Positions 39,201-60,189 of a DNA stretch of 64,000 nt are shown here, one piece after another. The position numbers and the translations under genes were made by a program. Within the stretch, counting starts at the first letter, position 1. Each line of letters begins with the position of its first letter. Origin of the DNA: Microtetraspora malaysiensis. GTDB lineage: Bacteria; Actinomycetota; Actinomycetes; Streptosporangiales; Streptosporangiaceae. Below the pieces are notes generated by a model. That model ran no database searches, had not been told where the DNA came from, and saw only the letters and a program-made list of their open reading frames with translations. The stretch spans positions 186,001-250,000 of the forward strand of contig NZ_BBYJ01000010.1 in the NCBI RefSeq assembly GCF_001528665.1. The letters run 5' to 3'.

Positions 39201-39338
39201 AAGCTTGCGGACGACCGGTGCCTCAATCGTTGAGGACGCCGATCGCACGAACTCGCCCATCTCGGTGAGCTTGGCCATCACGACCTTGCTCTCTACTCCG
39301 AACTCCTTGGCGAGTTCGTAAACCCGGACCTTCGCCAC
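36231..39338 (-). CDS. infB: translation initiation factor IF-2
   Basis: 1035 residues. The last ~600 contain the GTPase: [15 protein letters not shown] (G1), [15 protein letters not shown] (G3), NKVDKEGAD (G4) and SAKQG (G5), then domains II-IV. The first ~55 residues are the IF2-N domain ([26 protein letters not shown]). Between them, about 370 residues are Pro/Gly/Arg low complexity ([14 protein letters not shown]-type and [10 protein letters not shown]-type repeats), giving a protein longer than the ~890 of E. coli. IF-2 delivers initiator tRNA to the 30S subunit. Confidence 0.97.
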
Positions 39339-45016: not shown

Positions 45017-45109
45017 TCGATCCCCCGAAATCCTACGAAAGTGGCAATAGCGAGTATATAGATGCCTCAAAACAGGACAAAATACCCCACAGGAAGGCAA
45101 TGATTGGCA

Positions 45110-45123
45110 AGCAAACGCTTGTT
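45110..45123. promoter_or_regulatory. KstR2-like operator 1
   Basis: AGCAAACGCTTGTT differs at one position from the KstR2 motif AnCAAGnnCTTGnT; it is also part of the palindrome CAAGC-AAAC-GCTTG. TTATCC (45122-45127), a plausible -10, overlaps it, and initiation 7-8 bp later falls on the GTG at 45135 (leaderless). Confidence 0.6.
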
Positions 45124-45134
45124 ATCCTGCCCGC

Positions 45135-46115
45135 GTGACCTCTTCTGATGAACTGCGCGAGCTGCGAGCCGCCGTACGATCCTTCCTCGACGCCCACCCC
45201 GGCGCGGCGGACCAGAACACGTGGCGCCGCTTCGCCGGAGAGCTCGGGGTCGCCGGGCTGGCCGTCCCCGAGGAGTACGGCGGCGCCGGCTGCGGACTCG
45301 CCGAGGCGGCCGTCGTCTGCGAGGAGATCGGCCGGGCGCTGTCGCCGCTCCCCTATCTCTCCACCGCCGTCCTGGCCGTCACCGCGATCACCGAGTCGGG
45401 AGACGACGACGCCAAGGAGCGCCTACTGCCCGGCATCGCCGACGGGACCGTGACCGCCACCGTCGTCTTCCCCGGCGAGGCGGAACTGTCCGTGGAGGGC
45501 GGACTCCTGAGCGGCGTCGCGCCGTACGCGCTGGACGGCGCGGTGGTGCTCGCCTACGTCGGCGACGCCCTGATCGAGGCGGCGCCCTCCGCGCGCCGGC
45601 CGCTCGTCACCATGGACCAGACCCGGCCACTGGCCGAGCTGACCTTCGACGGCGTCCCGGCCCGGCGGATCGGGGACGCGGCCGCCCACGACCGGGTGCG
45701 CGACATGGGCGTCGCGGCGCTCGCGGCCGAGCAGGTCGGCGGCGCGGCCCGCTGCCTGGAGTCGGCCGTGGGGTACGCCAAGCAGCGGCACCAGTTCGGC
45801 CGCCCGATCGGCTCGTTCCAGGCGATCAAGCACAAGCTGGCCGACGTGCTGCTCCAGGTGGAGTCGGCCCGCTCGGCGGCCTACCAGGCCTGCGCGGCTC
45901 CCGCCAGCGAACTGGCCGTCTACGCCGCGATCGCGGGGTCGTACTGCACCGAGGCCTACCTCTCGGCGGCCGGCGAGAGCATCCAGATCCACGGCGGCAT
46001 CGGCGTCACCTGGGAGCACGACGCGCACCGCTACTTCAAGCGCGCGACCTCCGACGCCCAGCTCTTCGGGCCGCCGCAGGCGCACCGGGCGCGGCTGGCC
46101 CGGTCCATCCTCTGA
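45135..46115 (+). CDS. acyl-CoA dehydrogenase, IpdE2/FadE33-like
   Basis: 326 residues, shorter than the usual ~380 of the family. Motifs include LAVPEEYGGAGCGLAEAAVVCEEIGRAL, AKQRHQFGRPIGSFQAIKHKLADV and QIHGGIGVTWEHDAHRYFKRA. The sequence follows M. tuberculosis FadE33 (IpdE2) closely from memory. IpdE2 forms a hetero-oligomer with IpdE1 to dehydrogenate 5-OH-HIP-CoA during steroid C/D-ring breakdown. The partner-like gene is at 53276. The operator before it and the KstR2-like regulator at 59491 support the assignment. Biochemical role is inferred. Confidence 0.85.
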   Translation: MTSSDELRELRAAVRSFLDAHPGAADQNTWRRFAGELGVAGLAVPEEYGGAGCGLAEAAVVCEEIGRALSPLPYLSTAVLAVTAITESGDDDAKERLLPGIADGTVTATVVFPGEAELSVEGGLLSGVAPYALDGAVVLAYVGDALIEAAPSARRPLVTMDQTRPLAELTFDGVPARRIGDAAAHDRVRDMGVAALAAEQVGGAARCLESAVGYAKQRHQFGRPIGSFQAIKHKLADVLLQVESARSAAYQACAAPASELAVYAAIAGSYCTEAYLSAAGESIQIHGGIGVTWEHDAHRYFKRATSDAQLFGPPQAHRARLARSIL

Positions 46116-46170
46116 TCACGCTTTGACGGCGCTCGATCGCGTTCTGATCGGTGGGAGCCGGACGGGGCGG

Positions 46171-46644
46171 TCAGCCGCCGAGCAGTTCCTCCCAGTGCCT
46201 GCGGGACTCGCCGCGCCCCGCGGGCTCCCCGTCGGCGGCGCTGATCGACGCGGCCATCCGCCACAGGCCCGGGGTGGTGCGCAGGCGTTCCAGCCCGAGT
46301 GGATCGACCGCGCGCAGCAGGAGGCCGACGCCCATGACGTCGATGTTCGCCTCCGTGCGCGTGGCCGGGCCGGACGACGCGGCCAGGGCCGCGTCCGGTC
46401 CCGCCGCGCGGAGCCGCCCGACGACCAGGTCGGCCACCTCCGAGGCGTACGGGCCATCGCCCCACTCGATGTGCCAGCTCTCGTCCGCCGCCTGCCACCA
46501 GGTCAGGTCGCGGCAGGCGTCACGCATCTCCGCGTCTCCGGACAAAGCGGCGAGCACCCGGCCGAGCGCCTCGTAGCGCCGTGCTTCCGGCAGCGGCCCG
46601 TCCTCCGGACGCGCGCCGGGCTGCCTCCTACGGAATCCCCTCAT
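46171..46644 (-). CDS. hypothetical protein
   Basis: 157 residues from the ATG at 46644 (weak ribosome site; the frame opens to 46713). Soluble, no signal peptide. Features: a basic N-terminus (MRGFRRRQPGARP), ARRYEALGRVLAALSGD, LTWWQAADESWHIEWGDGPYASEVADLVVGRL, and MGVGLLLRAVDPLGLERLRTTPG. I do not recognise a family. It converges with the acyl-CoA dehydrogenase gene. Confidence 0.7.
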   Translation of the reverse strand: MRGFRRRQPGARPEDGPLPEARRYEALGRVLAALSGDAEMRDACRDLTWWQAADESWHIEWGDGPYASEVADLVVGRLRAAGPDAALAASSGPATRTEANIDVMGVGLLLRAVDPLGLERLRTTPGLWRMAASISAADGEPAGRGESRRHWEELLGG

Positions 46645-46892
46645 GTCTGGGAGCGTGCCATCCGACCGCTGGTGCGTCCCGGGGTTTCTCCGCCTTTTGC
46701 CCACGAGGATCAACTTTGATCGTCACAGCAACCCCACGCAACCCTCATTCGCGACATTTCCCCGTACTGCACAGCGGTGCCGTGCGGCGGGGCGAGTCGG
46801 GGAAAGACATCCTCCGCCGGTGGCGCGGCCCACCTGGCCCGTCGGGGCCCTCGTGGTAAAGAATCACGTAAAGGACACCTGCCCTGGAGGCC

Positions 46893-48227
46893 ATGGTGAC
46901 GTTGCGCGTGGCAATCGTGGGATCGGGACCGGCCGGGATCTACACCGCCGAGGCCCTGTCCAAGCAGTCCGGCGAGCCTATCGAGATCGACGTGCTCGAG
47001 CGGCTGCCCACCCCCTATGGACTCGTCCGGTACGGCGTGGCCCCCGACCACACGTCCATCAAGTCGATCGCGGGCTACCTGCGACGGGTCCTCGAATCGC
47101 CCGGCATCCGCTTCCTCGGCGGCCTCGAGCTGGGCGCTGACGTCTCCGCCGACGACCTGCTGGCCTGCTACGACGCGGTCGTCTACTGCACGGGGGCGAT
47201 GGTGGACCGGCACCTCGGCATCCCGGGCGAGGATCTGCCCGGCAGCGTGGCGGCCACCGACTTCGTCAACTGGTACTGCGGCCACCCGGACGTCCCCGCC
47301 GACGCGTTCACGCTCGACGCCGAGGAGGTCGCGGTGATCGGCGTCGGCAACGTCGCCGTGGACGTCGTCCGCATCCTCGCCAAGACCGCCGACGAGTTGC
47401 GCGGCACCGACGTGCCCGAGGAGGTGCTCGACCGGCTCGCCGCCTCCCGCGTCCGCAGGATCCACATGATCGGCCGCCGGGGGCCCGAGCACGCCAAGTT
47501 CACCCTGAAGGAGCTGCGCGAGCTGGGCGAGGTGACCAACGCCGACGTCCGCACTCTCCCGAGCGAGGTCGAGGTCGCCGACGTCGAGGGGCTCTCCCGG
47601 CAGATCAGGGGGAACGTCGAGGTGCTGCGGTCCTGGTCGACGCGGGTCCCGGCGGGCCGGCCGCGCGCGCTGGACGTGCGCTTCTGGCTGCGCCCGGTCG
47701 AGATCCTCGGCGCCGCCCGGGTCGAGGGCCTCCGGCTGGAGCGCACACGGCTGGTGGAGGGCCGGGTCACCGGCACCGGCGAGTACGAGACCATCCCGGC
47801 GGACATGGTGCTGCGGTCGGTGGGCTACCGGAGCGTGGCGCTGCCCGGCGTGCCGTTCGACACCGGGACCATGACCGTGCCCAACGTCGCGGGCAAGGTG
47901 ACGGGGACCGACCGCCAGTACGTCGCCGGATGGCTCAAGCGGGGCCCGACCGGCGTGATCGGCACCAACAAGTCCGACGCCGCCGAGACCGCGCGCACCC
48001 TGCTCGCGGAAGCCGTCCCCGGCACCGCGGACGCCAAGCTGGACGACCTGCTGAGCGCGCGCGGGATCACGCCGGTGACGTACGACGACTGGCTCGCGAT
48101 CGAGACGGCCGAGGCCGAGCTGGCCCGCACGCTGGGCCGCGGCGAGCGGGTCAAACTGGTCGGCCGCCCCGCCATGCTGGCCGCCTGCGGCCGCGTTCCC
48201 CGGGACACTGCGGGCGCCTCCTCCTGA
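46893..48227 (+). CDS. fprA: FprA-type ferredoxin/NADP reductase
   Basis: 444 residues, start after GGAGG. FAD loop VGSGPAGIYTAEAL, RLPTPYGLVRYGVAPDH, NADP loop GVGNVAVDVVRILAK and RRGPEHAKFTLKELRELGE, and the C-terminal WLKRGPTGVIGTNK: this is the adrenodoxin-reductase-type flavoprotein, like M. tuberculosis FprA. It passes electrons from NADPH to ferredoxins serving P450s and oxygenases, so it fits the surrounding oxidative catabolic genes. Not obviously in an operon with either neighbour; the gene at 48261 follows by 33 bp. Confidence 0.92.
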   Translation: MVTLRVAIVGSGPAGIYTAEALSKQSGEPIEIDVLERLPTPYGLVRYGVAPDHTSIKSIAGYLRRVLESPGIRFLGGLELGADVSADDLLACYDAVVYCTGAMVDRHLGIPGEDLPGSVAATDFVNWYCGHPDVPADAFTLDAEEVAVIGVGNVAVDVVRILAKTADELRGTDVPEEVLDRLAASRVRRIHMIGRRGPEHAKFTLKELRELGEVTNADVRTLPSEVEVADVEGLSRQIRGNVEVLRSWSTRVPAGRPRALDVRFWLRPVEILGAARVEGLRLERTRLVEGRVTGTGEYETIPADMVLRSVGYRSVALPGVPFDTGTMTVPNVAGKVTGTDRQYVAGWLKRGPTGVIGTNKSDAAETARTLLAEAVPGTADAKLDDLLSARGITPVTYDDWLAIETAEAELARTLGRGERVKLVGRPAMLAACGRVPRDTAGASS

Positions 48228-48260
48228 CCTCGCCCCCGCACGCTTTGCGAGGATCGAAAG

Positions 48261-49487
48261 ATGAAGACGACCCTGCCCGAACCGGCCGGCCTCATCGGGG
48301 GCTTCGAGGAGACCTACCGCGAGCAGTCGGCCCGGTTCTCGGGGGCGGGACCGGCCTGGCAGCCGGTGCACACGGTGTATATCCCCGCCGACCGGGTCTC
48401 CGCGACCACGGTCGACGAATGGGGACGCGCGGCCACCGAACTGCTCCACGAGCATCTCTTCTCCCCCGGGGAGCTGCCGCCGCTGTGCGGGCTCGACCCG
48501 GACCTGGCCGCGCCGGTCCACGACCGGGTCCGCAGGAAGCTGCGGATCGAGCCGGTCGAGGACCTGCGGATCGACTTCGAGGACGGGTACGGCCGACGGC
48601 CCGACGCCGAGGAGGACCGGCACGTCGAGAGCGCCGCCGAGGCCGTGGCGGCCATGGCGCGGGCGGGCACGCTGCCGCGCCGGTGGGGCCCGCGGGTGAA
48701 GTCGTTCGCCGACGGCGACCCCGTACGCAGTGTCAGGACGCTCGACGGCTTCGTCACGGAGGTGCTCAGGCGGGTGGGCGAGCTGCCGCCGGGGTTCACG
48801 GTCACGTTCCCGAAAGTGCTGATGGAGGGCTATCTCCGGCAGTTCGCACGCTGCCTGGAGGCGCTGGAGGGCGCGGCGGGCCTGCCGGAGTGCGTCCTGC
48901 GGTTCGAGATCCAGGTCGAGGCCCCGCAGACCGTGGCCTTCCTGCTGCGCTCCCCCGACCTGGTGCCGTCCCTCGGCGGACGGCTGGCCGCCGCGCATTT
49001 CGGGGTGTTCGACTACACCGCGGCCTGCGGGCTGCCGCCGCACGAGCAGCGGCTCGACCATCCCGTGTGCGACCACGCCAGGGAGATCATGCGGATCGCG
49101 TTCGCGGGGACCGGGGTGGAACTGGCCGACGGCTCGCTGGCCGCCTTCCCCGCGTCGAACTCGGCGAAGGACGTCCACGCCCTGTGGGCCCGGCACGCCC
49201 AGTTGGTGGCGCACTCGCTGTCGAACGGTTTCTACCAGGGCTGGGACATGCACCCGTCGCATCTCGTCAGCCGCTACGCGACCGTGTACGCGTTCCATCT
49301 CGCGCACTACGAGGAGTACAGCGCGCGGGTGGAGGCCTGGGAGCAGCGGCGTGAGGCGGGCGGCGGCGTCATGGACGAGCCCTCCACGATCAAGACCATG
49401 GCGGCGGCCCTGGCGCGCGCCGACCACGCTCTGCTGGATCGTCCCACCTCGGGCGAGACAGGCTTGGGGCTCCCCTTGAGGCGATGA
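48261..49487 (+). CDS. aldolase/citrate lyase-like protein (DUF6986 family)
   Basis: 408 residues. HpcH/HpaI-type TIM-barrel features: RIDFEDGYGRRPDAEEDRH (acidic metal-site motif), VTFPKVLMEGYLRQF, LRFEIQVEAPQTVAFL, FGVFDYTAACGLPPHEQRLDHPVCDHARE and LSNGFYQGWDMHPSHLVSRY. This pattern marks a family of uncharacterised malate-synthase-like/aldolase proteins in actinobacteria. The reaction is probably C-C cleavage or condensation with a 2-oxoacid or acyl-CoA, but nothing fixes the substrate. Confidence 0.8.
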   Translation: MKTTLPEPAGLIGGFEETYREQSARFSGAGPAWQPVHTVYIPADRVSATTVDEWGRAATELLHEHLFSPGELPPLCGLDPDLAAPVHDRVRRKLRIEPVEDLRIDFEDGYGRRPDAEEDRHVESAAEAVAAMARAGTLPRRWGPRVKSFADGDPVRSVRTLDGFVTEVLRRVGELPPGFTVTFPKVLMEGYLRQFARCLEALEGAAGLPECVLRFEIQVEAPQTVAFLLRSPDLVPSLGGRLAAAHFGVFDYTAACGLPPHEQRLDHPVCDHAREIMRIAFAGTGVELADGSLAAFPASNSAKDVHALWARHAQLVAHSLSNGFYQGWDMHPSHLVSRYATVYAFHLAHYEEYSARVEAWEQRREAGGGVMDEPSTIKTMAAALARADHALLDRPTSGETGLGLPLRR

Positions 49488-49521
49488 CCTTCGGGCCGTC
49501 GCTCGGGGATCGCCCCTTCGA

Positions 49522-50202
49522 TCAAGCGCTGTCCAGGATGTGGCGCCAGGCACGTACGCGGGAGGGATCCACAGGGTGCGCCCACGACTCGCGCGCCGGA
49601 CTGCCGACGTGGAAGGCGCGTACGCCCCACCGGCGCAGCGCGGGGACGTGCTCCTCCTTGAGTCCGCCTCCGGCCAAGATGATCTCGCCGTCCCCGGCGT
49701 CGGTGCGCTCGCGCAGCACCGGGAGCCCCTCACCGACCCCCTTCGGGGAGCCGGACGAGAGGACGGTGGCCAGGTTCGGCAGCAGCCGTACGGCACGCCA
49801 GGCGGCACGGACGTCGGCGGCGTGGTCGACGGCGCGGTGGAAGGTCCACGGGAGCGGCGCCACCGCGTGGATGAGCGCCTCGGTCGCCTCCAGGTCGACC
49901 GTGCCCTCCTCGGTGAGGAATCCGAAGACGAAGCCGCCCGCGCCCGCCTTGGCCAGCTCGCGGGCCTCCTCGCGAAGACGGTCGAGCTCCTCGGCGGTGG
50001 CCGTGAAGCCCGCGTTGCCGCGGAGCATCACCATCTGGGGCAGCGAGCACACCTCGGCGATGGCCGCGACCACGTCCGCCGAGGGGGTGAGCCCGCCGGA
50101 GGCCATGTCGGACACGACCTCCAGCCGGTCGGCTCCACCCTCCTCGGCGGCGACGGCGTCACGCACGTCCAGCGCGATCACTTCCAGCAGCGGTGCGGTC
50201 AT
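49522..50202 (-). CDS. cutC: CutC family protein
   Basis: 226 residues from ATG at 50202. TIM-barrel CutC signature: LEVIALDVRDAVAAEEGGADRLEVVSDMASGGLTPS, MLRGNAGF, GFVFGFLTEEGTVD, WTFHRAVDH and GLKEEHVPALRRWGVRAFHVGS. It was once linked to copper tolerance in E. coli, but the effect was reassigned; the enzymatic role is unknown. No ribosome site; TACTGT 7 bp upstream suggests a leaderless mRNA. Confidence 0.92.
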   Translation of the reverse strand: MTAPLLEVIALDVRDAVAAEEGGADRLEVVSDMASGGLTPSADVVAAIAEVCSLPQMVMLRGNAGFTATAEELDRLREEARELAKAGAGGFVFGFLTEEGTVDLEATEALIHAVAPLPWTFHRAVDHAADVRAAWRAVRLLPNLATVLSSGSPKGVGEGLPVLRERTDAGDGEIILAGGGLKEEHVPALRRWGVRAFHVGSPARESWAHPVDPSRVRAWRHILDSA

Positions 50203-50267
50203 GTACCGAACAGTAGCCGGTCCGTTTGACACGCTGTACGGCATGCGCCCCGTTCAGCGGGAGATCG

Positions 50268-50819
50268 CTACCTTGTGCGAGCGGATGTCACGGTGGCTCC
50301 CGCCGGGCGCTCGAAGAGCGCGCCCGACGCCCGGTGGGCCAGGTCCACGGTCCGGACGTGCCGGAACCCCAGTTCGGCGTAGTAGCGCTGCAGCCGGAGG
50401 TTGTCCTTGGAACAGTCCAGCCGCAGCCAGCGCCTCCCGTCGGCCGCCGCGCGCAGCCCGGCCCAGTCGAGGAGCGCCTCGCCCAGTCCCCTTCCGGCGT
50501 ACGCGCGGCTCACCGCGAGTTTGTGGACGTAGCGCGCGGTGTCGGGACGGTCGTCGCGCCCCCAGAACTCGGGGTCGGCGTGGCCGTCGAGCGCTACGGT
50601 CGCGGCCGCGCCCCTGCCGTCGTCGAGGACGTACATCGTGCCGGTCTCGATGAGCGGTTCGATCCGGGAGGCGGGGAAGCCGTCGGCCGGCCACTGCCGT
50701 ACGCCCTGGGAGGCGAGCCATCGCGCGGCGTCGGCGAGCAGGGACAGCACGGAGGGCAGGTCGTCGGGGACGGCCCCGCGGAGGGTGAACTTGCCGGGGA
50801 GGAGAATGTGGGACGGCAT
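50268..50819 (-). CDS. GNAT-family N-acetyltransferase
   Basis: 183 residues from ATG at 50819 with AAAGGAA upstream. GNAT core: LRGAVPDDLPSVLSLLADAARWLASQGVRQW, KLAVSRAYAGRGLGEALLDWAGLRA with the R/Q-x-x-G-x-G acetyl-CoA loop, and LRLDCSKDNLRLQRYYAELGFRHV. The WLASQGVRQWP segment is typical of a Streptomyces acetyltransferase group of unknown substrate. Confidence 0.88.
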   Translation of the reverse strand: MPSHILLPGKFTLRGAVPDDLPSVLSLLADAARWLASQGVRQWPADGFPASRIEPLIETGTMYVLDDGRGAAATVALDGHADPEFWGRDDRPDTARYVHKLAVSRAYAGRGLGEALLDWAGLRAAADGRRWLRLDCSKDNLRLQRYYAELGFRHVRTVDLAHRASGALFERPAGATVTSARTR

Positions 50820-51066
50820 GGTCGATTCCTTTCTGTGGTGCGATGAACACGGAAAGTCACCGATGGAGAGTGTGCGCCTCCGCGCCGCCTCGGCGGGCGT
50901 CTAGGGGGAGCGGCCTTCCAGCGGCGTTCGCCCGCCGGATGGCGGCCTTCTCCAGCTCATGGAGGGGGCAGGCCGTGACTGATGCGACGGCGAGCGGGCC
51001 CCGCGGTCGCCCGCGGGGAGGAACATGGGGGAACGCCCCGTCAGGCGACGGGGGATCCGTGGCGCG

Positions 51067-51819
51067 TCATCGGGCTTCCAGCTCGTATCTGATGAGGTGC
51101 TTGTCGGCGGGAAGCACCGACACCGCGACGCGTACGGGAACGTCCTCGGGGTCGTATCCGACCCGGACGTAGACGACGACGGGGGTGCCCGGCTCGATCT
51201 GGAGCCGGGACGCCTCGTCGGGGGTGGGCATCCGGGCGGAGATGTCGTCGACGACGCGAACCTGGGGGTGCCCGAGCTCTTCGAGCACCCGGTTGCCGCC
51301 CCGCCTGATGTCGCCGGGCCGGGCGATCTCCGAGTCGGCGACGATGACGTACGGGAAGTAGGAGTCGTTCGTGTTGTACGGCTGGCCGTCCACGTAGCGG
51401 AGGCGGCGGCGCACGACGGCGAGGGCCCGGTCGGCGAGGGCGAGCCGGGTGGCCACGTCCTCCGGCGGCTCGACGATGGCCACCTCGATGTCCTGCCCGG
51501 CCTCACGACCCTCGGAGGTGACGGCGTGCACGAACGCGTCGCTGCGGGGCTCACCCGTCCTCAGGGGCAGCAGCTCGTGCTGTGGACGGAGGAGGAGCGG
51601 GCGGCGCTCGCGGACGAAGGTGCCACGGCGGCGCATCCGGAGGATCAGGCCTTCATTCTCGAGCTCGCCGAGCGCCAGCCGCACGGTGTTCCGGCTGACT
51701 CGGTGGGCCTCCATGAGCTCGGCCTCGGTGGGGATCTGGTCTCCTGGCCCGAGCGCCCCCGCGTAGATGGCCTTCCGTAGCTCGGCGGCCACCTGCTGGT
51801 AGAGCGACGATCGTGCCAT
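51067..51819 (-). CDS. GntR-family regulator, HutC/UTRA type
   Basis: 250 residues. GntR winged helix (LYQQVAAELRKAIYAGALGPG, IPTEAELMEAHRVSRNTVRLALGELENEGLI, wing RRRGTFVRE) and UTRA domain (VRRRLRYVDGQPYNTNDSYFPYVI, RMPTPDEASRLQIEPGTPVVVYVRV). Two TTGTnnnnACAA sites 20-62 bp upstream of its start should be its operators. The only rightward candidate beyond them is the small frame at 51998. Ligand unknown. Confidence 0.92.
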   Translation of the reverse strand: MARSSLYQQVAAELRKAIYAGALGPGDQIPTEAELMEAHRVSRNTVRLALGELENEGLILRMRRRGTFVRERRPLLLRPQHELLPLRTGEPRSDAFVHAVTSEGREAGQDIEVAIVEPPEDVATRLALADRALAVVRRRLRYVDGQPYNTNDSYFPYVIVADSEIARPGDIRRGGNRVLEELGHPQVRVVDDISARMPTPDEASRLQIEPGTPVVVYVRVGYDPEDVPVRVAVSVLPADKHLIRYELEAR

Positions 51820-51838
51820 TTTCCCTCAATCTACCCTT

Positions 51839-51881
51839 TTGTTCCAACAAATTTAGACGATCTCTGTCTTTGTGCAAACAA
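51839..51881. promoter_or_regulatory. twin GntR operators TTGTnnnnACAA
   Basis: TTGTTCCAACAA (51839-51850) and TTGTGCAAACAA (51870-51881) both fit TTGTnnnnACAA and are exactly 31 bp apart, three helical turns, in the A/T-rich region upstream of the GntR gene. Cooperative autorepression is inferred. Confidence 0.65.
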
Positions 51882-51997
51882 CCACTTGACCTGAGCGGGC
51901 AGACCGCGCATCATCCAAACGTTGGTACAAATCCATCGAATGGGAGCGGGGGGCGCCGCAAGGGGCTTCCCACACCTACCAGAGCAACGGAAGCGGG

Positions 51998-52189
51998 ATG
52001 TCGGTGCCGTCGGTATGTACCGAACTGGCCGCCTGGCACGCGTACGGGGCCTTCGCCGGGAATGTTGGTGAAGTCGTCGCGACGCGCCGGGTGGACGACG
52101 CCGGCGCCGCACTGCTGACCATGCGCCATCGAACGGGATCGGCCGGTCCCGGCGAGGACGACCGGCCACCGCGAGACTCCGCGCGATGA
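51998..52189 (+). CDS. possible small protein divergent from GntR gene
   Basis: 63 residues (MSVPSVCTELAAWHAYGAFA, then GNVGEVVATRRVDDAGAALL and a polar tail), ATG after GGAAGCGGG. Most codons in the first 45 end in G or C, and tandem hairpins begin 9 bp after the stop. It lies across the twin GntR operators. Evidence for translation is modest and the transcript could instead be a regulatory RNA. No family recognised. Confidence 0.35.
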   Translation: MSVPSVCTELAAWHAYGAFAGNVGEVVATRRVDDAGAALLTMRHRTGSAGPGEDDRPPRDSAR

Positions 52190-52197
52190 ACGACGGC

Positions 52198-52287
52198 CAC
52201 GACCTCAACCCTCGCCGAGGTCGTGACCGTCGCGCCCGGAGCGTGACGTGTCCTGGCGGGCTCCCCACGCCCGCCAGGACGCGTCAC
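52198..52287 (+). terminator. tandem hairpins in an intergenic region
   Basis: First: perfect 9-bp stem CACGACCTC (52198-52206) / GAGGTCGTG (52217-52225). Second: 19-bp stem 52243-52261 / 52269-52287 with one G-U pair and a 7-nt loop (core GTCCTGGCGGGC / GCCCGCCAGGAC). The second is among the most stable hairpins in the window. Confidence 0.7.
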
Positions 52288-52587
52288 GTCACTTCGCCCC
52301 CCGCCCACGGGCGCGCCTCCGGGCCGAAACCAGCCGCCCCTTCCTCTGCTGACCGGCGGCCGACGACACCCTCATAAGGGACACCGGGAATGACACCGGC
52401 CGGAATCGGCTTGAAATTCAGCGGAGGCCCGGCCGCGTACGAGCGCTCGCCGACGGGCGCGCCGCCCCGACTGAGCCTCGGGCCACCTCCACGTCCGAAC
52501 GGCACGGTCCCCTCAGGGCCGGGCCACGTCCGTACGTCCAGGTCAGAGCGAGTCGCCGCGATGTCGCGGGGATCGCTGTCGCGTCGA
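52288..52587. other. intergenic region without a recognisable gene
   Basis: 300 bp between the hairpins and the KstR2-like site. A 72-codon frame (52390-52608) runs across the operator and its translation is Pro/Arg/Ser-rich without a ribosome site, so I do not accept it. Nothing else is seen. Confidence 0.4.
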
Positions 52588-52601
52588 ACCAAGCGCTTGC
52601 T
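52588..52601. promoter_or_regulatory. KstR2-like operator 2
   Basis: ACCAAGCGCTTGCT is an exact match to AnCAAGnnCTTGnT. TAAGGT (52601-52606), a plausible -10, abuts it. It lies 46 bp before the flavin reductase ATG. Confidence 0.7.
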
Positions 52602-52646
52602 AAGGTGAACGCAGGGCAGGGCGGGACCGAGGGAGGAAACGCCAGG

Positions 52647-53279
52647 ATGAGCACCGACGCGGTCCGGCCGCTCACGCCGGACCCCGCACGTCCCTCCTCG
52701 CGCGGCCCCGGTCACCGCCATCCCGCCGGCGAGCACGCCCCGTCCTCGGCCGCCGGGCACCGCGCCCGGCCGGACGCCCGCCTCAGGCAGCACGCCTTCC
52801 CCTCTGACAGCAAGCACTTCCGAAACGTCCTCGGCCGGTTCGCCACCGGAGTCGTCGCCGTCACCGCGATCGACGAGGCGACCGGCGAGCCGTGCGGCCT
52901 CGCGGCCAACTCCTTCACCTCGGTCAGCCTGGACCCGCCGCTGGTGGCGTTCTGCGTGGCCCACACCAGCACGAGCTGGCCCCGGGTGAAGGCGGCCGGG
53001 CGGCTGTGCGTGAACGTGCTCGCCGAAACCCAGCGGCACGTCTGCGACCGGCTCGCGGCCAAGGGCGGGGACAAGTTCGCCGGCCTGTCCTGGTCCCTCT
53101 CACCCGCGGGCGGTCCCGTCTTCGACGGCACGCTCGCCTGGCTCGACTGCACGATCGAGACCGAGCTCCCGGCCGGGGATCACGTCATCGTGGTGGCCCG
53201 CGTCCACGGCCTCGACAAGCACGAGGACGGCGATCCGCTCGTCTTCTTCCGCGGAGATTACGGACGGTTCCACGCATGA
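52647..53279 (+). CDS. flavin reductase domain protein, HsaB-like
   Basis: 210 residues from ATG at 52647 after GGGAGGAAAC. An unusual 65-residue Pro/His/Arg-rich N-terminal extension precedes the flavin-reductase-like FMN-binding split barrel (FRNVLGRFATGVVAVTAIDE, AANSFTSVSLDPPLVAFCVAHTS, LCVNVLAETQ, DKFAGLSW, VFFRGDYGRF). HsaB, the reductase of the HsaAB steroid hydroxylase, has the same motifs. It supplies reduced flavin to an oxygenase. Coupled by ATGA to the acyl-CoA dehydrogenase gene and preceded by a KstR2-like site. Confidence 0.85.
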   Translation: MSTDAVRPLTPDPARPSSRGPGHRHPAGEHAPSSAAGHRARPDARLRQHAFPSDSKHFRNVLGRFATGVVAVTAIDEATGEPCGLAANSFTSVSLDPPLVAFCVAHTSTSWPRVKAAGRLCVNVLAETQRHVCDRLAAKGGDKFAGLSWSLSPAGGPVFDGTLAWLDCTIETELPAGDHVIVVARVHGLDKHEDGDPLVFFRGDYGRFHA

Positions 53280-54430
53280 CATCAGACAGCTTCCGACACG
53301 AGGTCCGGGAGTGGCTGGAGGCCAGCCTGACCGGTGAGTTCGCCGACGCGCGGGGCCTCGGTGGGCCGGGCCGCGAGCACGAGGGCCACGAGCTGCGGGT
53401 CGCCTGGGAGCGCCACCTCGGCGCGGCCGAATGGACCTGCCTCGGCTGGCCCGGCGAGTACGGCGGACGCGACGCGTCGCTCGACGATCAGGTCGTGTTC
53501 TACGAGGAGTACGCGCGGGCGAACGCCCCGGCGCGGGTCGGCCACATCGGCGAGGGCCTGATCGGCCCGACCATCCTCGACTTCGGCACGCCCGAGCAGA
53601 AGAAGCGGTTCCTCCCGCCCATCCAGCGGGGCGAGGAGCTGTGGTGCCAGGGCTACTCCGAGCCGGACGCCGGTTCCGACCTCGCGAACGTGCAGACGAA
53701 GGCCGTCCTCGACGGCGACGAGTGGCTCGTCACCGGGCAGAAGGTGTGGACCTCCCTCGCCCACGTCGCCGACTGGTGCTTCGTCGTGTGCCGTACCGAG
53801 CCGGGCTCACAGCGGCACAAGGGCCTGTCGTACCTGCTGGTCCCGATGGACCAGCCGGGGGTCGAGATCCGGCCGATCACGCAGATGACCGGCACCGGCG
53901 AGTTCAACGAGGTCTTCTTCGACGGCGCCCGTACGGCGGCCGCGAACATCCTGGGCGGGCCCGGCGACGGGTGGCGGGTGGCGATGGCCACGCTCGGGTA
54001 CGAGCGCGGCGCGTCCACGCTCGGCCAGCAGATCGGCTTCCGCCGGGAGCTGGCCGCGGTGATCGAGGCCGCCCGCGGGTCCGGCGCGGTGGACGACCCG
54101 GTGCTGCGCGACCGGCTCACCCAGTCCTGGCTGGAGCTGGAGATCATGCGCCTGAACGCCCTGCGCACGATGACCTCCCTCAGCTCGGGTGAGCCGGGCC
54201 CCGAGGTGTCGATCGCGAAGCTCTACTGGTCGGAGTGGCACCGCAGGCTGGGCGAGCTGGCACAGGCCGTCCAGGGACGGGCCGGGCTGGTCGCCGACGG
54301 CGAGCCGTACGACCTGAACGATCTGCAGCGGCTGTACCTGTTCAGCCGGGCCGACACCATCTACGCCGGGTCGAGCGAGATCCAGCGCAACATCATCGCC
54401 GAGCGCACGCTCGGCCTGCCCCGCGGCTAG
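53276..54430 (+). CDS. acyl-CoA dehydrogenase, IpdE1/FadE30-like
   Basis: 384 residues. FRHEVREWLEASLTGEFADARGLGGPGREHE, CLGWPGEYGGRD, WCQGYSEPDAGSDLA, GQKVWTSLAH and IYAGSSEIQRNIIAERTLGLPRG place it with M. tuberculosis FadE30 (IpdE1). Glu243 in YERG is the candidate catalytic base. IpdE1 pairs with IpdE2 to desaturate 5-OH-HIP-CoA in steroid catabolism; the IpdE2-like gene is at 45135. ATGA overlap with the flavin reductase indicates one operon under operator 2. Confidence 0.88.
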   Translation: MTSDSFRHEVREWLEASLTGEFADARGLGGPGREHEGHELRVAWERHLGAAEWTCLGWPGEYGGRDASLDDQVVFYEEYARANAPARVGHIGEGLIGPTILDFGTPEQKKRFLPPIQRGEELWCQGYSEPDAGSDLANVQTKAVLDGDEWLVTGQKVWTSLAHVADWCFVVCRTEPGSQRHKGLSYLLVPMDQPGVEIRPITQMTGTGEFNEVFFDGARTAAANILGGPGDGWRVAMATLGYERGASTLGQQIGFRRELAAVIEAARGSGAVDDPVLRDRLTQSWLELEIMRLNALRTMTSLSSGEPGPEVSIAKLYWSEWHRRLGELAQAVQGRAGLVADGEPYDLNDLQRLYLFSRADTIYAGSSEIQRNIIAERTLGLPRG

Positions 54431-54466
54431 AGGTCCGAGCGAACGCCACGGCCGGGTCGCCCGTAC

Positions 54467-55288
54467 CTAGCCGCGGAGCATCTCGGCCAGGGCGCGGGCG
54501 AACAGGCCGGGGGCGTCCAGCTCGTAGCGGAGGAAGAGGTACGGCTCGGTGAGTTCGAGCTCGATCAGCACGGGCTCGCCGTTCGGCATCCGCACGAGGT
54601 CGACGCGCGCGTAGAGCAGCGGCTCGGACACCTTGCTCAGCACCAGCTCGGCGACCTCGAACTGGTCGGCGTCCGGGTCGCGCAGCGTCGCCCTGTTGTT
54701 CAGGTCGAGCTCCTGGCCGTCCCCGGCCAGCATCGGGTGTCGCCGTACGGCGTGGCTGAACTCGCCCCCGAAGTAGAGCAGCGACAGCTCGCCCTCGTGC
54801 TCGACGCTGTCCAGGTAGGGCTGCACCATGACGGTCCGCCCCTCGGCGGCGAGCCGGGCGGCGTGCGCCTCGGCCACGGCCCGGTCGGCGGTCCGGATGG
54901 TGTCCCGCGCGCCCGACGAGATCGCCGGCTTGACGACGTATTCGTCCCACTCAGGGATGCCCTCGTGGCTCCAATGGGTGGGGACGGTTGGCACGCCGAG
55001 GTCGCGCAGGTAGGTCTTGTCGGTGTTCCGTTCGAGCACCGGCGCGGGGTTCAGCAGCCGGGTCAGCCCGCCGACCCGGTATGCCCAGGCGACGAACTCG
55101 TCCCTCCGCTCGATGTAGTCCCACGCGGAGCGGACCACCGCGGCGTCGAAGGAGGCCCAGTCCGCTTCCGGATCGTCCCATCGCACCGGCGTGCCCTGGA
55201 TGCCCTCCCCCAGCCACGCGGCGAGTGCGGTCTCCCGCTCGTCGTCGTGCCCCAGCGGGTCGGCGAAGGTGACGTAGGCGACCTTCAT
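54467..55288 (-). CDS. ATP-grasp domain protein
   Basis: 273 residues. ATP-grasp features: VVRSAWDYIERRDEFVAW, LLNPAPVLERNTDKTYLRDLGVPTVPT, YVVKPAISSGARDTIR (phosphate loop), VMVQPYLDSVEHEGELSLLYFGG and VLIELELTEPYLFLRYE. The group resembles RimK/glutathione-synthetase-like ligases that form amide bonds, including uncharacterised actinobacterial enzymes of about this size. Substrates unknown. Convergent with the IpdE1-like gene. Confidence 0.85.
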   Translation of the reverse strand: MKVAYVTFADPLGHDDERETALAAWLGEGIQGTPVRWDDPEADWASFDAAVVRSAWDYIERRDEFVAWAYRVGGLTRLLNPAPVLERNTDKTYLRDLGVPTVPTHWSHEGIPEWDEYVVKPAISSGARDTIRTADRAVAEAHAARLAAEGRTVMVQPYLDSVEHEGELSLLYFGGEFSHAVRRHPMLAGDGQELDLNNRATLRDPDADQFEVAELVLSKVSEPLLYARVDLVRMPNGEPVLIELELTEPYLFLRYELDAPGLFARALAEMLRG

Positions 55289-55364
55289 CGCGCTCCTATC
55301 CTGTCGCGTCAGTACCGAAGAAATCGTACGGACATGTCACGGGGGACGCGACACGCGGGGGACG

Positions 55365-56231
55365 TCAGGCGAAGCCGTACACGGGCACGGGGACGGGGGC
55401 GTGCGCGAGCAGCCCGGCCACGGCGGCGCCCACGTCCGCGCGGTCCCACTTGTCCCCGCCCGCGCTGGGGCCCTGCCGCCAGCCGGTCGCCAGGGAGATC
55501 GCGCCCTCCCCCACCTCGAACACTCGGCCCGTGACGTGCCGCGACCCGGCCGACCCGAGCCAGGCGGTCAGGGCCGCCGCGTCGTTCTCGCCCGCCTCGG
55601 CCGTGCCGGCGACCCGGTCGCGGCTCGCGCCCGGCGCGACGGCGTTGACGGTGACGCCGTACGGTCCCAGTTCGGCGGCGGCCACGTGGGTGAGCGCGGC
55701 TATGCCGGCGGTGGCGGCCACGTAGTTGCCCTGGCCCGCGCTGCCGTACAGGCCCGCGCCGGACGAGATGGTGATCACCCGGGCGTCCGCGGGGTGCCCG
55801 GCCGCGGCCCGTTCCCGCCAGTGCTCGGAGGCGTGCCGCATCGGCAGGAAGCAGCCCTTGAGGTGGGACCGGATCACGTCGTCCCAGTCGCCCTCGGTCA
55901 TGGCCACCAGCGCGCGGTCGCGGGTGAAACCGGCGGCGCAGACCAGCACGTCCAAACCCCCGAACGCGCTCAGCGCGGTCTTGACCAGGCGTTCCGCCCC
56001 GTCCCAATCCGTGACGTCGTCGCAGCTCGCCACGGCCTGGCCGCCCCTGGCGCGGATCTCCTCGGCCACCTCGCGGGCCGGGCCGCCGCCCCCGGCGGCG
56101 CCGTACGGACTCGTGCCGGGATCGTTGACGACGACCTTCGCACCCTGACGCGCGAACTCCAGGGCTTGCGCGCGCCCGATGCCGCGTCCGGCCCCCGTCA
56201 CGACGACCACCCGGCCCTCGCAGATCCCCAT
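55365..56231 (-). CDS. short-chain dehydrogenase/reductase with altered catalytic lysine
   Basis: 288 residues. Classical SDR: VTGAGRGIGRAQALEFARQGAKVVVND, catalytic Ser in TISSGAGLYG, Tyr170 in GQGNYVAATAGIAAL. The lysine four residues after Tyr is Thr174, and the usual NNAG is VCAAG (Asn replaced). The family with a GAAGGGGPAREV insertion resembles the SDRs of mycobacterial HIP catabolism. Without the Lys the normal proton relay should fail, so the enzyme may be inactive, a structural subunit, or use another mechanism. No operator was seen upstream. Confidence 0.85.
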   Translation of the reverse strand: MGICEGRVVVVTGAGRGIGRAQALEFARQGAKVVVNDPGTSPYGAAGGGGPAREVAEEIRARGGQAVASCDDVTDWDGAERLVKTALSAFGGLDVLVCAAGFTRDRALVAMTEGDWDDVIRSHLKGCFLPMRHASEHWRERAAAGHPADARVITISSGAGLYGSAGQGNYVAATAGIAALTHVAAAELGPYGVTVNAVAPGASRDRVAGTAEAGENDAAALTAWLGSAGSRHVTGRVFEVGEGAISLATGWRQGPSAGGDKWDRADVGAAVAGLLAHAPVPVPVYGFA

Positions 56232-56374
56232 TTATCGACCCTTTCGCACCGTAATCCCCGACAGTGTTCTGGAGCGCGGATGATCTGTCCAGGGCCGGAA
56301 GACCTCTGTCTGAGAAACGGCATGACGCGGGGAAAGGGCGCTGGTCAGGCGCGGCGTGCGCACCTGGACGAAGA

Positions 56375-57895
56375 TCAGACGCGGCCGGTCAGCACCTCGG
56401 CGGCGGCCTGACCGCAGACGCGCGCCACCCCGTGGGTGGCGATGTGCACCGCCCCCAGGTCCGTACGGCCCGGCAGCCCCATCTCGACCACCACGCCGTC
56501 CGGGCGGGCGGCGAGCAGGTGGGTCAGCGTGTCCATCTGCCAGGGGTGGCGGTGGGCGTCCCGCACGACGACGACCAGCGGCCGCCCGGCCGCCTTCTCG
56601 AGCGCCTCGGGGGGTACCCCGTCGGCCACGTCCTCCTCGCGGAGCCGGATGGCGGTGGTGCCCGGCAGGATCCGCCCGAGCGGCTCCGCGGTGCCCCACG
56701 GCATGTGCCGGTCGATGGCGAGGTTGGTCTCGGGGGCCAGCTCGACCACGTGTGGCGCCTCCGTGAGCGGCAGCGCATCAGGCACCCCCGCGCGCCGGGT
56801 GATCCGGATGGCGCGGCGCGCCGCCACCAGCCCGACCTCCGCCGGGGCTCCCGCGCCGTTCCCGCCGGAGGCGTGGCCGTTCGCTCCGCTCCCGGCGGCC
56901 GTGGCCGAGGCGTGCCAGGCCGCCAGCTGCCGGACCCGCCAGGCGGCATCGGCGAGCCGTTCCTCGGGCAGCCGCCCCTCGACGACCGCGGTCACGATGG
57001 CGCGGCGGATGTGCTCCAGCGTCTCCTCGTCGGAGTTCTCCCCGCCCACGCACACGGCGTCGGCGCCCGCCGCGACGGCCATGGCGCTCGCGCCGCCCAG
57101 CCCGTACGCGCCGGACACGGCGGCCATCTCGATCCCGTCGGTGACGATCAGGCCATCGAAGCCGAGCTCGTTCCTGAGCAGGCCGGTCAGGATGCGGGGG
57201 CTGAGGGTGGCGGGCAGCCCGTCGTCGTAGGCGGTGACGAGCAGGTGCCCGGTCATGATCGAGCGGACGCCCTGCTCGATCGCGACCCGGAACGGCCACA
57301 GCTCCACTTCCGCGAGCTCCTCCGAGGAGACGGTGACGCGGGGAACGCCGTGGTGGGAGTCGACCGCGGTGTCCCCGTGCCCCGGGAAGTGCTTGGCGCA
57401 GGCCGCGACGCCAGCGGACTGGAGACCGCGGATCCAGGCGGCCGTGTGGCGGGCGACCAGCTCGGGGTCCGCCCCGAACGCCCGCAGCCCGATGACCGGG
57501 TTGTCGGGGTTGGAGTTGACGTCCGCCGCGGGCGCGAAGTCGAGGTTCACGCCCGCGGCGGCGAGATCGCGCCCCACGTCGCGGGCGACCTGCTCGGTCA
57601 GCTCCTCGTCGTCGACCACTCCCAGCGCGTAGTTACCGGGACGGGAGCTGCCGGTGCGCGCCTCCAGACGGGTGACCTCGCCCGCCTCCTCGTCGATGCC
57701 GACGAGGACCCGCGGGTTCTCCGCGCGCAGCGCCGCGGTCAGGTCGGCGAGCTGGCCGGGGCTCTCGACGTTGCGCGAGAACAGCACGACCCCGGCCAGG
57801 CCGTCGGCCAGCCGCCGGCGCAGCCAGTCGGGCGGCGCGGCCCCGGGGAAGCCGGGCAGGATGACAGTGTCGGCGAGGCGCAGCAGATCACGCAT
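56375..57895 (-). CDS. glycoside hydrolase family 3, NagZ-like beta-N-acetylhexosaminidase
   Basis: 506 residues. GH3 NagZ motifs: VGIDEEAGEVTRL, LDFAPAADVNSNPDNPVIGLRAFG, AKHFPGHGDTAVDSHHGVP (His-Asp catalytic dyad), and nucleophile in IVTDGIEMAAV. A C-terminal alpha/beta domain of about 150 residues follows an Ala/Gly-rich linker, as in two-domain actinobacterial GH3. NagZ removes N-acetylglucosamine from cell-wall fragments in recycling; no signal peptide supports a cytoplasmic role. A ROK-like operator lies just upstream. Confidence 0.9.
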   Translation of the reverse strand: MRDLLRLADTVILPGFPGAAPPDWLRRRLADGLAGVVLFSRNVESPGQLADLTAALRAENPRVLVGIDEEAGEVTRLEARTGSSRPGNYALGVVDDEELTEQVARDVGRDLAAAGVNLDFAPAADVNSNPDNPVIGLRAFGADPELVARHTAAWIRGLQSAGVAACAKHFPGHGDTAVDSHHGVPRVTVSSEELAEVELWPFRVAIEQGVRSIMTGHLLVTAYDDGLPATLSPRILTGLLRNELGFDGLIVTDGIEMAAVSGAYGLGGASAMAVAAGADAVCVGGENSDEETLEHIRRAIVTAVVEGRLPEERLADAAWRVRQLAAWHASATAAGSGANGHASGGNGAGAPAEVGLVAARRAIRITRRAGVPDALPLTEAPHVVELAPETNLAIDRHMPWGTAEPLGRILPGTTAIRLREEDVADGVPPEALEKAAGRPLVVVVRDAHRHPWQMDTLTHLLAARPDGVVVEMGLPGRTDLGAVHIATHGVARVCGQAAAEVLTGRV

Positions 57896-57906
57896 GCCCG
57901 CAATCT

Positions 57907-57925
57907 AATAAGAAAGTTTCCTATT
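57907..57925. promoter_or_regulatory. putative ROK operator upstream of the NagZ-like gene
   Basis: 19-bp palindrome AATAAGAAAGTTTCCTATT centred on G57916 with one mismatched pair, 12-30 bp before the gene. The AAAGTTTCC core is shared with the site at 184-198 before the ROK gene. Confidence 0.6.
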
Positions 57926-57988
57926 CGCTAGCCCACCTCATCCCCTATTTGGCGTGGCATCTCCTGTTCGGCCCCTATTCGCCTCCAG

Positions 57989-59341
57989 TCAGCGCAGCCT
58001 GCCGTCCGCGATCTCGTACCGGGCCACCGTTGAGACGGGGGCGTCCGGCCGGTCCACGTGATCCACCGCGCGGAACTCCGCGCGGAAGCCGTCCATGTCG
58101 GCCGTGCAGGTGAGGTAACCCCGGCGGTCGGTGGCGAGCCGGAGACGCGGATCGCGGTCGAGAACGGCCTGGGAGCCGACCCGCGGCGCGGCCGACACCG
58201 AGGTGGTGGAGAACTCGACGCCGACGGCGCGCGACCCCGGATCGGCCGGGTCGGCCCGCAGGTCGCCCGCCCAGCCGTCGCCCGTGTCTCCGCTCAGCAC
58301 GACGAGGCCCTCCGGGGCGTCCGCCAGCACGCGGGCGCGGCTGCGCGGGAAGGCGTCCCACCCGGTGGGGTCCCCGTCCGTGAGACCGCGCGGGCCGAAG
58401 AACGCGGGCTGGACCAGGACCCTCCAGCGGGCGGTCCCACTCGCCAACCGGGTGCGCAACCACTCCTCCTGCTCCGCGCCCAGCATGTCGTCACCGTCGC
58501 GGTGCTGCCGCGTGTCGAGCAGCAGGAGGTCGGCCACCCGGCCGTACGGCCGCCAGCGGTGCACGCGCAGTGACGCGCCGGTCGGCCGGACGCGCAGCGG
58601 CATGTGCTCGAAGTACGCCTTGAACGCGGCGGCACGCCGCTTGAGGAAGGCGGCCGGACTGGATCCGTCGCCGGGCCGCGCGCCCGCGCAGCCCTCGCGT
58701 ACCTCGTGGTCGTCGAGGACGGGCAACCACGGCGCCGCGGCGTGCGCCGCCCGCAGGTCGGGGTCCGTCCGGTAGGTCGCGTACCGGTTCCGGTACGCCG
58801 CCAGGGTCGTGCACTCCGCCTCCGATTCCAGCGGCCGTACGTACGCGTCCGGCCCGGAGCGTACGGTCGCGCCCGCGTACATGTAGCCGCCGAGGTGCAC
58901 GATCACGTCGGGACGCTCGGCGGCGAGGTGCCGCAGCGCGGTGAAGCGGCCCTCCTCGTAACGCTGACCCGAGGCGACCGCGAACCGCACGGGCGCGGTC
59001 GAGCCGGGATCGGGGGCGGTCCTGGTCCGCCCGACCGGGCTCTCGTGGCCGTCCACGGAGAACCGGTAGAAGTACTCCCGTCCGGGCCGCAGGCCCGCCA
59101 CCCTTACGTGGACGCTGTGCGCCCGGTCCGGCCACGCGGAGGCCTCGCCGGACCGGACCACGCGGGTGAGCTTCTCGTCCTCCGCGATCTCCCAGCGCAC
59201 GGCGGCCGTCCGGCCGGGCATGCCGCCGGGACGTACGGCATCAAGAGGGTCGGGGGCGAGACGGGTCCACAAGATGATCCCGTCGGGAAGCGGCTCCCCC
59301 GATGCCACTCCCAAGGTAAACGGATACCCCAATTTCACCAT
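57989..59341 (-). CDS. PhoD-like phosphodiesterase/phosphatase with altered metal motifs
   Basis: 450 residues from ATG at 59341; no signal peptide. The N-terminal Ig-like part (GVASGEPLPDGIILWTRLAP) and barrel match PhoD. Family motifs HLGDYIYE, DDHExxNN and GDVHxxW appear as HLGGYMYAG (149-155), DDHEVREG (210-217) and GDTGDGWAG (351-359): the first Asp is Gly152 and the GDVH histidine is absent. Metal binding is therefore doubtful. PhoD enzymes are normally Tat-exported; this one appears cytosolic. Function uncertain. Confidence 0.8.
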   Translation of the reverse strand: MVKLGYPFTLGVASGEPLPDGIILWTRLAPDPLDAVRPGGMPGRTAAVRWEIAEDEKLTRVVRSGEASAWPDRAHSVHVRVAGLRPGREYFYRFSVDGHESPVGRTRTAPDPGSTAPVRFAVASGQRYEEGRFTALRHLAAERPDVIVHLGGYMYAGATVRSGPDAYVRPLESEAECTTLAAYRNRYATYRTDPDLRAAHAAAPWLPVLDDHEVREGCAGARPGDGSSPAAFLKRRAAAFKAYFEHMPLRVRPTGASLRVHRWRPYGRVADLLLLDTRQHRDGDDMLGAEQEEWLRTRLASGTARWRVLVQPAFFGPRGLTDGDPTGWDAFPRSRARVLADAPEGLVVLSGDTGDGWAGDLRADPADPGSRAVGVEFSTTSVSAAPRVGSQAVLDRDPRLRLATDRRGYLTCTADMDGFRAEFRAVDHVDRPDAPVSTVARYEIADGRLR

Positions 59342-59401
59342 AAGGAGGATCTTGCACAATATGTGACCTTGGTGGTGCCAGGATGCGCAAGTCCGAATTG
59401 C

Positions 59402-59415
59402 AGCAAGCGCTTGGT
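59402..59415. promoter_or_regulatory. KstR2-like operator 3
   Basis: AGCAAGCGCTTGGT is an exact match to AnCAAGnnCTTGnT, in the 149-bp region between the PhoD-like gene and the TetR gene. TAGCAT abuts it rightward; TGCAAT overlaps it leftward, so it may serve both directions. Confidence 0.7.
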
Positions 59416-59490
59416 AGCATATCTGGACGGCGATGAGCAGGTGACTCTCCACCGCTTTAAGGCGAGCAAGCCATTGCTCGGACCTTCATA

Positions 59491-60189
59491 ATGGGTGGTG
59501 TGAACCAGCGAAAGAACTCCGGCGGCGCCACCGCCGCCCCAGTGAGGCGCCAGGGCACGGCGAAACGAGCGGCCACCGCGGGCTCGGCCTCCGAGCGGCG
59601 CGACCACCTCGTCAAGCTCGCGGCGGAGCTCTTCGCGCGCAAGGGCTTCCAGGCGACCACCGTCCGGCAGATCGCCGACGAGGCGGGGATCCTCTCCGGA
59701 AGCCTCTACCACCACTTCGACTCCAAGGAGACGATCGTCGACGAGGTGCTGCGCACCTTCCTCGAAGATCTCACCGCCCGCTACCGCGCGGTCCTGGAGA
59801 CAGCGGGCGACGCCCGCACCGCGCTGACCGAGATGGTGCGCGTCGGTTTCGGCACACTGGAGCCGCACCGCGCGGCCATCACGGTGATGCAGAACGACTG
59901 GAACTACCTCCGCTCCCTCCCCGGCGACCGCTTCGGCTACCTGGTCAAGGCCGAGGACGAGGTCGAGCGGATGTGGGTCGAGCAGATCAAGCGCGGCCAG
60001 GCCGAGGGCCTCTTCCGCGCCGACCTCGACCCCAAGCTCACCTACCGCATGATCCGCGACACGATCTGGGTCGCGGTGCGGTGGTTCCGCCCCGGCGGGC
60101 GGCTCAACACCACAACGCTGGCCGAGCATTACATCACGGTGCTGTTCGACGGCCTCGCCACCGGTGACCGCACCAGCCACGGCGCATGA
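59491..60189 (+). CDS. kstR2: TetR-family repressor, KstR2-like
   Basis: 232 residues from ATG 59491; a GTG at 59500, 8 bp after CATAAT, is an alternative leaderless start. TetR helix-turn-helix FQATTVRQIADEAGILSGSLYHHFDSKETIVDEVLRTFL, then a ligand domain with MWVEQIKRGQAEGLFRADLDPKLTYRMIRDTIWVAVRWFRPGGRL. This C-terminal half follows M. tuberculosis KstR2, which senses HIP-CoA. Stop overlaps the alkD-like start. Three matching operators in the window support the call. Confidence 0.85.
   Translation: MGGVNQRKNSGGATAAPVRRQGTAKRAATAGSASERRDHLVKLAAELFARKGFQATTVRQIADEAGILSGSLYHHFDSKETIVDEVLRTFLEDLTARYRAVLETAGDARTALTEMVRVGFGTLEPHRAAITVMQNDWNYLRSLPGDRFGYLVKAEDEVERMWVEQIKRGQAEGLFRADLDPKLTYRMIRDTIWVAVRWFRPGGRLNTTTLAEHYITVLFDGLATGDRTSHGA

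Follow-up and report, generated by a model that had tools for sequence, protein, structure and literature searches.

Steroid catabolism is described as divided between two regulons, with KstR governing the upper and KstR2 the lower part of the pathway; in mycobacteria, cyp125 and echA19/fadD19 are KstR targets. The KstR2 of Mycobacterium and Rhodococcus is a TetR-family protein with the recognition helix ILSGSLYHHF that acts on the operator AnCAAGnnCTTGnT and controls its own gene (PMC3068626, PMC5380842), and it counts ipdE1 and ipdE2 (fadE30 and fadE33) among its targets. Its motif was described, with gel-shift support, by Kendall et al. 2010 (PMC3068626), and HIP-CoA was identified as its effector by Crowe et al. 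2017 (PMC5380842). In Nocardioides simplex, KstR2-type sites are predicted at 29 operons and ipdAB is duplicated (PMC7807495), so that dispersal of a KstR2 regulon already has a precedent; the accessible part of that report describes one KstR2 gene, without a second repressor with a changed operator (PMC7807495).

The Microtetraspora locus described here resembles the mycobacterial and rhodococcal system in repressor family, helix and operator, and, as predictions, in self-control and the two ipdE targets. It differs in two respects: there, three operators belong to one HIP cluster, whereas this genome has three repressor paralogues, with the HIP core probably under another of them; and the operator class found here also reaches cyp125, echA19/fadD19 and cholesterol oxidase.

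Predicted KstR2-type operators in the window

We analysed a stretch of 64,000 nucleotides (the window) from a genome of 8.8 Mb belonging to a Microtetraspora close to M. fusca. An earlier note on this DNA had reported two exact matches to AnCAAGnnCTTGnT and one with a single mismatch, and our scan found all of them: exact at 52588 and 59402, and with one mismatch at 45110 (AGCAAACGCTTGTT). Two further one-mismatch sites lie at 59465 and 39277, bringing the window to five matches at up to one mismatch, as compared to 0.29 expected; none of 100 shuffles gave five. The match at 39277–39290 (ATCACGACCTTGCT) is probably due to chance. The note's count of three operators becomes four, since 59465 had been missed, and its 14-mer at 45110 turns out to be part of a longer element (Table 1). 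The M. tuberculosis kstR2 probe shares 14 identical bases with the 59402 site (PMC3068626).

Table 1. Predicted operators, genes and repressors, with positions in the window unless a locus is named.
Feature	Position	Strand	Remarks
ipdE2 operator	45106..45123	+	GGCAAGCAAACGCTTGTT, CAAGC-N4-GCTTG; contains the 14-mer 45110-45123 of the earlier note; kept in 18 orthologous promoters
IpdE2/FadE33-like acyl-CoA dehydrogenase small subunit	45135..46115	+	profile and mycobacterial match
hsaB-like/ipdE1 operon operator	52588..52601	+	ACCAAGCGCTTGCT; same place in several relatives
HsaB-like flavin reductase	52647..53279	+	reading frame open from 52605; translation probably begins at ATG 52647, preceded by GGAGG
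IpdE1/FadE30-like acyl-CoA dehydrogenase large subunit	53276..54430	+	mycobacterial match
SDR, possible HIP-cluster remnant	55365..56231	-	resembles Rv3548c
Distal kstR2A operator	59402..59415	+	AGCAAGCGCTTGGT
Proximal kstR2A operator	59465..59478	+	AGCAAGCCATTGCT; 12 bp upstream of the start codon; overlooked in the earlier note
KstR2-type TetR repressor KstR2A	59491..60189	+	recognition helix ILSGSLYHHF; PDB matches; tree
Third KstR2-type repressor	C5, L024:10029-10652		solitary gene

The element upstream of ipdE2 is better taken as 45106–45123 because its first CAAG, which lies partly beyond the 14-mer, is conserved: in the window and its 18 orthologous promoters the AG of the first half and the CGCTTG of the second are invariant (19/19). 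This longer form is comparable to CCAAGCAAGTGCTTGCTTAGGT, the probe for Rv3549c/Rv3550 of M. tuberculosis (PMC3068626). In the window it is followed by the -10-like hexamer TATCCT and a near-leaderless GTG start. The earlier suggestion that the operators adjoin -10-like elements held to the extent that such a hexamer also directly follows the 45110-type site on its 3' side in the orthologues (TTATGCT, TTAAGAT), but a sigma-70 scan called no promoter at the operator sites of the window. A phoD-like ORF on the minus strand (57989–59452) covers the site at 59402 when read from its most distant start codon; were translation to begin near 59221, the site would fall between genes.

The genes behind these sites best match mycobacterial IpdE2, HsaB and IpdE1; the earlier note had named the two dehydrogenases as IpdE2-like and IpdE1-like and the third gene as a flavin reductase. 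Our reference was one mycobacterial HIP cluster that we fetched. Its IpdE2 (FadE33 position) has its best match in the window protein, at 41% as compared to 32% for C11 (window and fetched loci compared), and the same gene is the only one in the genome to match the NCBIfam IpdE2 model at E<=1e-60. Its 240.5 bits are below the curated cut-off of 450, a cut-off that looks mycobacterial because the in-cluster IpdE2 homologues of other genera (279–296 bits) likewise fall short of it. The FadE30-position protein (IpdE1) finds its best match, at 64%, in the window dehydrogenase (window and several fetched loci compared). The flavin reductase is 46% identical to mycobacterial HsaB and scores 186 bits against NCBIfam HsaB, below the curated cut-off of 230. 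The intervening genes, called unrelated in the earlier note, are not all so: the SDR is 53% identical to the SDR at the mycobacterial Rv3548c position, to which a copy on C11 is 67% identical.

Motif counts and conservation across the family

Genome-wide, the motif is barely enriched, and matching alone would therefore not prove a regulon: exact AnCAAGnnCTTGnT occurs at 8 sites as compared to 4 for a reversed-pattern control, and at up to one mismatch the figures are 178 and 172. Four of the eight exact matches are likely chance, as two lie inside genes (C6:238083 and C10:315624), one has no promoter position (C19:89790) and one has no gene close by (C41:53453). The narrower class ANCAARCGYTTGNT has 6 sites in the genome and none in the control, namely the three window sites named earlier plus C7:43285, C40:24376 and C4:114620. 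The genome scan suggested in the earlier note thus gave a mixed answer, poor for the strict motif and clean for the narrower class. Since that class was picked after the sites were known, comparison across relatives is the fairer test, and with the published motif count not decisive, both the narrower class and phylogenetic conservation are needed.

This comparison bears directly on the reading that the palindromes are nothing but chance matches in a G+C-rich genome. The weak genome-wide enrichment is what this reading has in its favour; the elements, however, are conserved in specific positions across many genera and species and co-occur with the repressor, and we consider it extremely improbable. 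The proximal operator (-26) has a counterpart at -20 to -33 in 77 of the 80 orthologous repressor promoters compared across Streptosporangiaceae (one of the 77 loci has a different start, and its site was counted at the corresponding place). A strong distal operator is kept in 52 of the 80. Every one of the 39 loci in which a fadA6 homologue neighbours the repressor has it, as do 13 of the remaining 41. The operator before the hsaB-like gene is kept in several genera and is missing in Microbispora and some others. Among 25 genomes of the family we counted 36 sites, all of them in the 15 genomes that encode a KstR2-type repressor; the other 10 have no site (p = 9e-5, by genome count); the reversed control gave 3 and 4, respectively. 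A chance origin of the four window elements is refuted by this conservation, and from the aligned sequences they are predicted to be conserved KstR2-type operators.

Sites of the window class recur before the repressor gene in G001, G003, G009 and G016, before the hsaB-like gene in G003 and G008, before the dapB-like head of the cholesterol-oxidase operon in G003, G015 and G022, before cyp125 in G003 and G005, and before echA19/fadD19 in G003 and G015.

KstR2A is one of three KstR2-type repressors

The best PDB matches of KstR2A are 2ibd (2.8e-55) and the KstR2 structure 4w1u (3e-52), to whose sequence it is 46% identical. An R-D-x-x-W motif is conserved where M. tuberculosis KstR2 has RDTTW, residues that we take to contact HIP-CoA. 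The genome encodes three KstR2-type repressors: KstR2A in the window, KstR2B on C11 and a third on C5, whose own promoter has no recognisable KstR2-type site. In the tree, the window type forms one clade (support 100/100) and the C11 and C5 types another (100/99); the mycobacterial and Rhodococcus KstR2 proteins join the latter in the best tree (80/67), with an unresolved root, which also persisted when the tree with long outgroups was rerun minus its longest rows. A clade uniting KstR2A with mycobacterial KstR2 is not rejected (p-AU 0.074). Given this tree, we call the window protein KstR2-type rather than KstR2; the earlier description of the gene as KstR2-like is supported, with the correction that it is one of three such genes in the genome.

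One could still read the window gene as the KstR2 orthologue and the locus as nothing more than a KstR2 regulon whose three operators are dispersed. Its helix and operator equal those of M. tuberculosis KstR2, it sits in a HIP cluster in many relatives, and the p-AU value accommodates it. The genome, however, holds two more KstR2-type genes, of which one is a member of the core HIP cluster, the best tree places mycobacterial KstR2 with the C11/C5 clade, and there are additional sites and upper-pathway targets; on balance we regard this reading as unlikely, roughly a one-in-four prospect.

That the sites are bound mainly by the C11 or C5 repressor, with the window gene a minor or autoregulating leftover, seems to us more doubtful still. 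Three paralogues with related operator classes, and a C5 gene with no recognisable site of its own, would fit such an arrangement, but in 77 of 80 genomes the promoter of the window-type gene itself carries the proximal site, the C11 and C5 helices differ, and Nonomuraea deserti (G003) has CAAGCGCTTG sites although the window type is its only KstR2-type gene at the threshold used.

The HIP core on C11 and a changed operator

The core HIP genes fadA6 and ipdAB are absent beside KstR2A in this genome and are located on C11. There, the KstR2B gene is followed by fadA6, with ipdF-, fadE31-, fadE32- and echA-like genes alongside; an SDR gene, echA20, ipdA, ipdB and ipdC lie about 15 kb from this group. 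The two divergent promoters of the KstR2B gene carry AACAAATGTTTGGT and AACAATTGTTTGGT, and exact matches to the C11 operator AACAAWTGTTTGGT occur nowhere else in the genome. Operators of this type B are also present in five relatives (e.g. AACAACTGTTTGGT and ACCAAACGTTTGTT). The fadD3-like gene (C11:49320; L241:1450-3027; 54% to the mycobacterial protein) has no recognisable KstR2-type operator.

The helix ILSGSLYHHF, shared by the window type, mycobacteria and Rhodococcus, pairs with CAAGnnCTTG operators, and the C11-type helix (I/M)L(G/A)GSLYYHF with CAAnnnTTTG operators. Helix and operator thus appear to change in step; with few independent lineages, this is a lead and not proof.

In many relatives the window-type repressor sits in an intact HIP cluster, and for this reason the window has the look of such a cluster that has come apart. 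Nonomuraea deserti has the same repressor together with fadA6, ipdABC, echA20, an SDR gene and ipdE1-like and hsaB-like genes within ~20 kb; fadA6 stands beside a KstR2A-type repressor in 39 of 80 relatives, and ipdA lies within 10 kb (<=10 kb) in 32 of 80. Of such a cluster, the window has the repressor, both ipdE genes, the hsaB-like gene and the Rv3548c-like SDR; the other HIP genes are not in it. The simplest account would be that the HIP core was lost from the window, or moved, and that the C11 cluster now serves; we infer the direction of evolutionary change between the intact and the split locus. The dispersal over 15 kb that had been claimed is lineage-specific. In this genome the HIP core forms a cluster on C11, with its own KstR2-type gene and operator.

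Sites in upper-pathway promoters

Outside the window, four more sites lie in three steroid promoters, those of echA19/fadD19, the cholesterol oxidase operon and cyp125, and one further site lies upstream of an SDR gene. Before cyp125, as in the KstR regulon, there is a KstR-type site (TAGAACACGTTCCA); different from that regulon is the KstR2A-type operator downstream of it (GCCAAGCGTTTGAT here, one mismatch), the two sites being 28–30 bp apart in three genomes (this one, G003 and G005). On C40 (L026:7377-10713) the operator is followed by dapB-like, AhpD-like and secreted cholesterol-oxidase-like genes.

Proposed regulation

We think it quite probable that KstR2A represses its own gene, ipdE2 and the hsaB-like/ipdE1 operon until released by a CoA thioester, that C11 is under KstR2B, and that the window holds the remains of a HIP cluster. 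KstR2A would cover its own promoter through the sites at 59402 and 59465 and so repress itself, would repress ipdE2 from 45106–45123 and the hsaB-like/ipdE1 operon from 52588, and would be released by a CoA thioester from steroid rings C/D, HIP-CoA or a closely related compound being the likeliest. KstR2B would hold the remaining HIP pathway on C11, and cyp125 would be under both KstR-type and KstR2-type repressors, coupling the first sterol steps to a late intermediate. We infer DNA binding, repression and effector of KstR2A by analogy: promoter occlusion and release by HIP-CoA or a related thioester are suggested by the KstR2 precedent and by where the elements lie, on likely promoters or adjoining them. 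Speaking against this account, the echA20-ipdAB promoter of Nonomuraea has only a degenerate site.

Whether the rewiring is family-wide we consider an open bet, with about equal chances either way: two KstR2-type repressors would share the ancestral regulon, the (I/M)L(G/A)GSLYYHF/CAAnnnTTTG pair holding the HIP core and the ILSGSLYHHF/CAAGnnCTTG pair having spread to the first sterol steps, with cyp125 jointly controlled. If so, cyp125 would answer both to an early-metabolite sensor of the KstR type and to a late-metabolite sensor of the KstR2 type. In the genome studied, a KstR2-type operator class reaches the upper pathway, and the paralogous repressors appear to have split their DNA specificity through a few residues of the recognition helix, which offers a testable pair of protein and operator changes. 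Caution is also due where an actinobacterium has several KstR2-like TetR genes: similarity by itself is a poor ground for calling one of them 'kstR2'.

At about 30 loci of Nonomuraea and relatives (L060 and L067 among them), a conserved asymmetric element, ACCAAGCAAGCGTTAGGT, lies 20–50 bp before the echA20 homologue; upstream of echA20-ipdAB it amounts to a half-degenerate KstR2-type site. Separately, G016 has four KstR2-type genes (L185, L190, L191 and L192), and there the helix form ILAGSIYHHF is found beside ipdAB with ACCAAATGTTTGTT-type (CAAA-type) sites.
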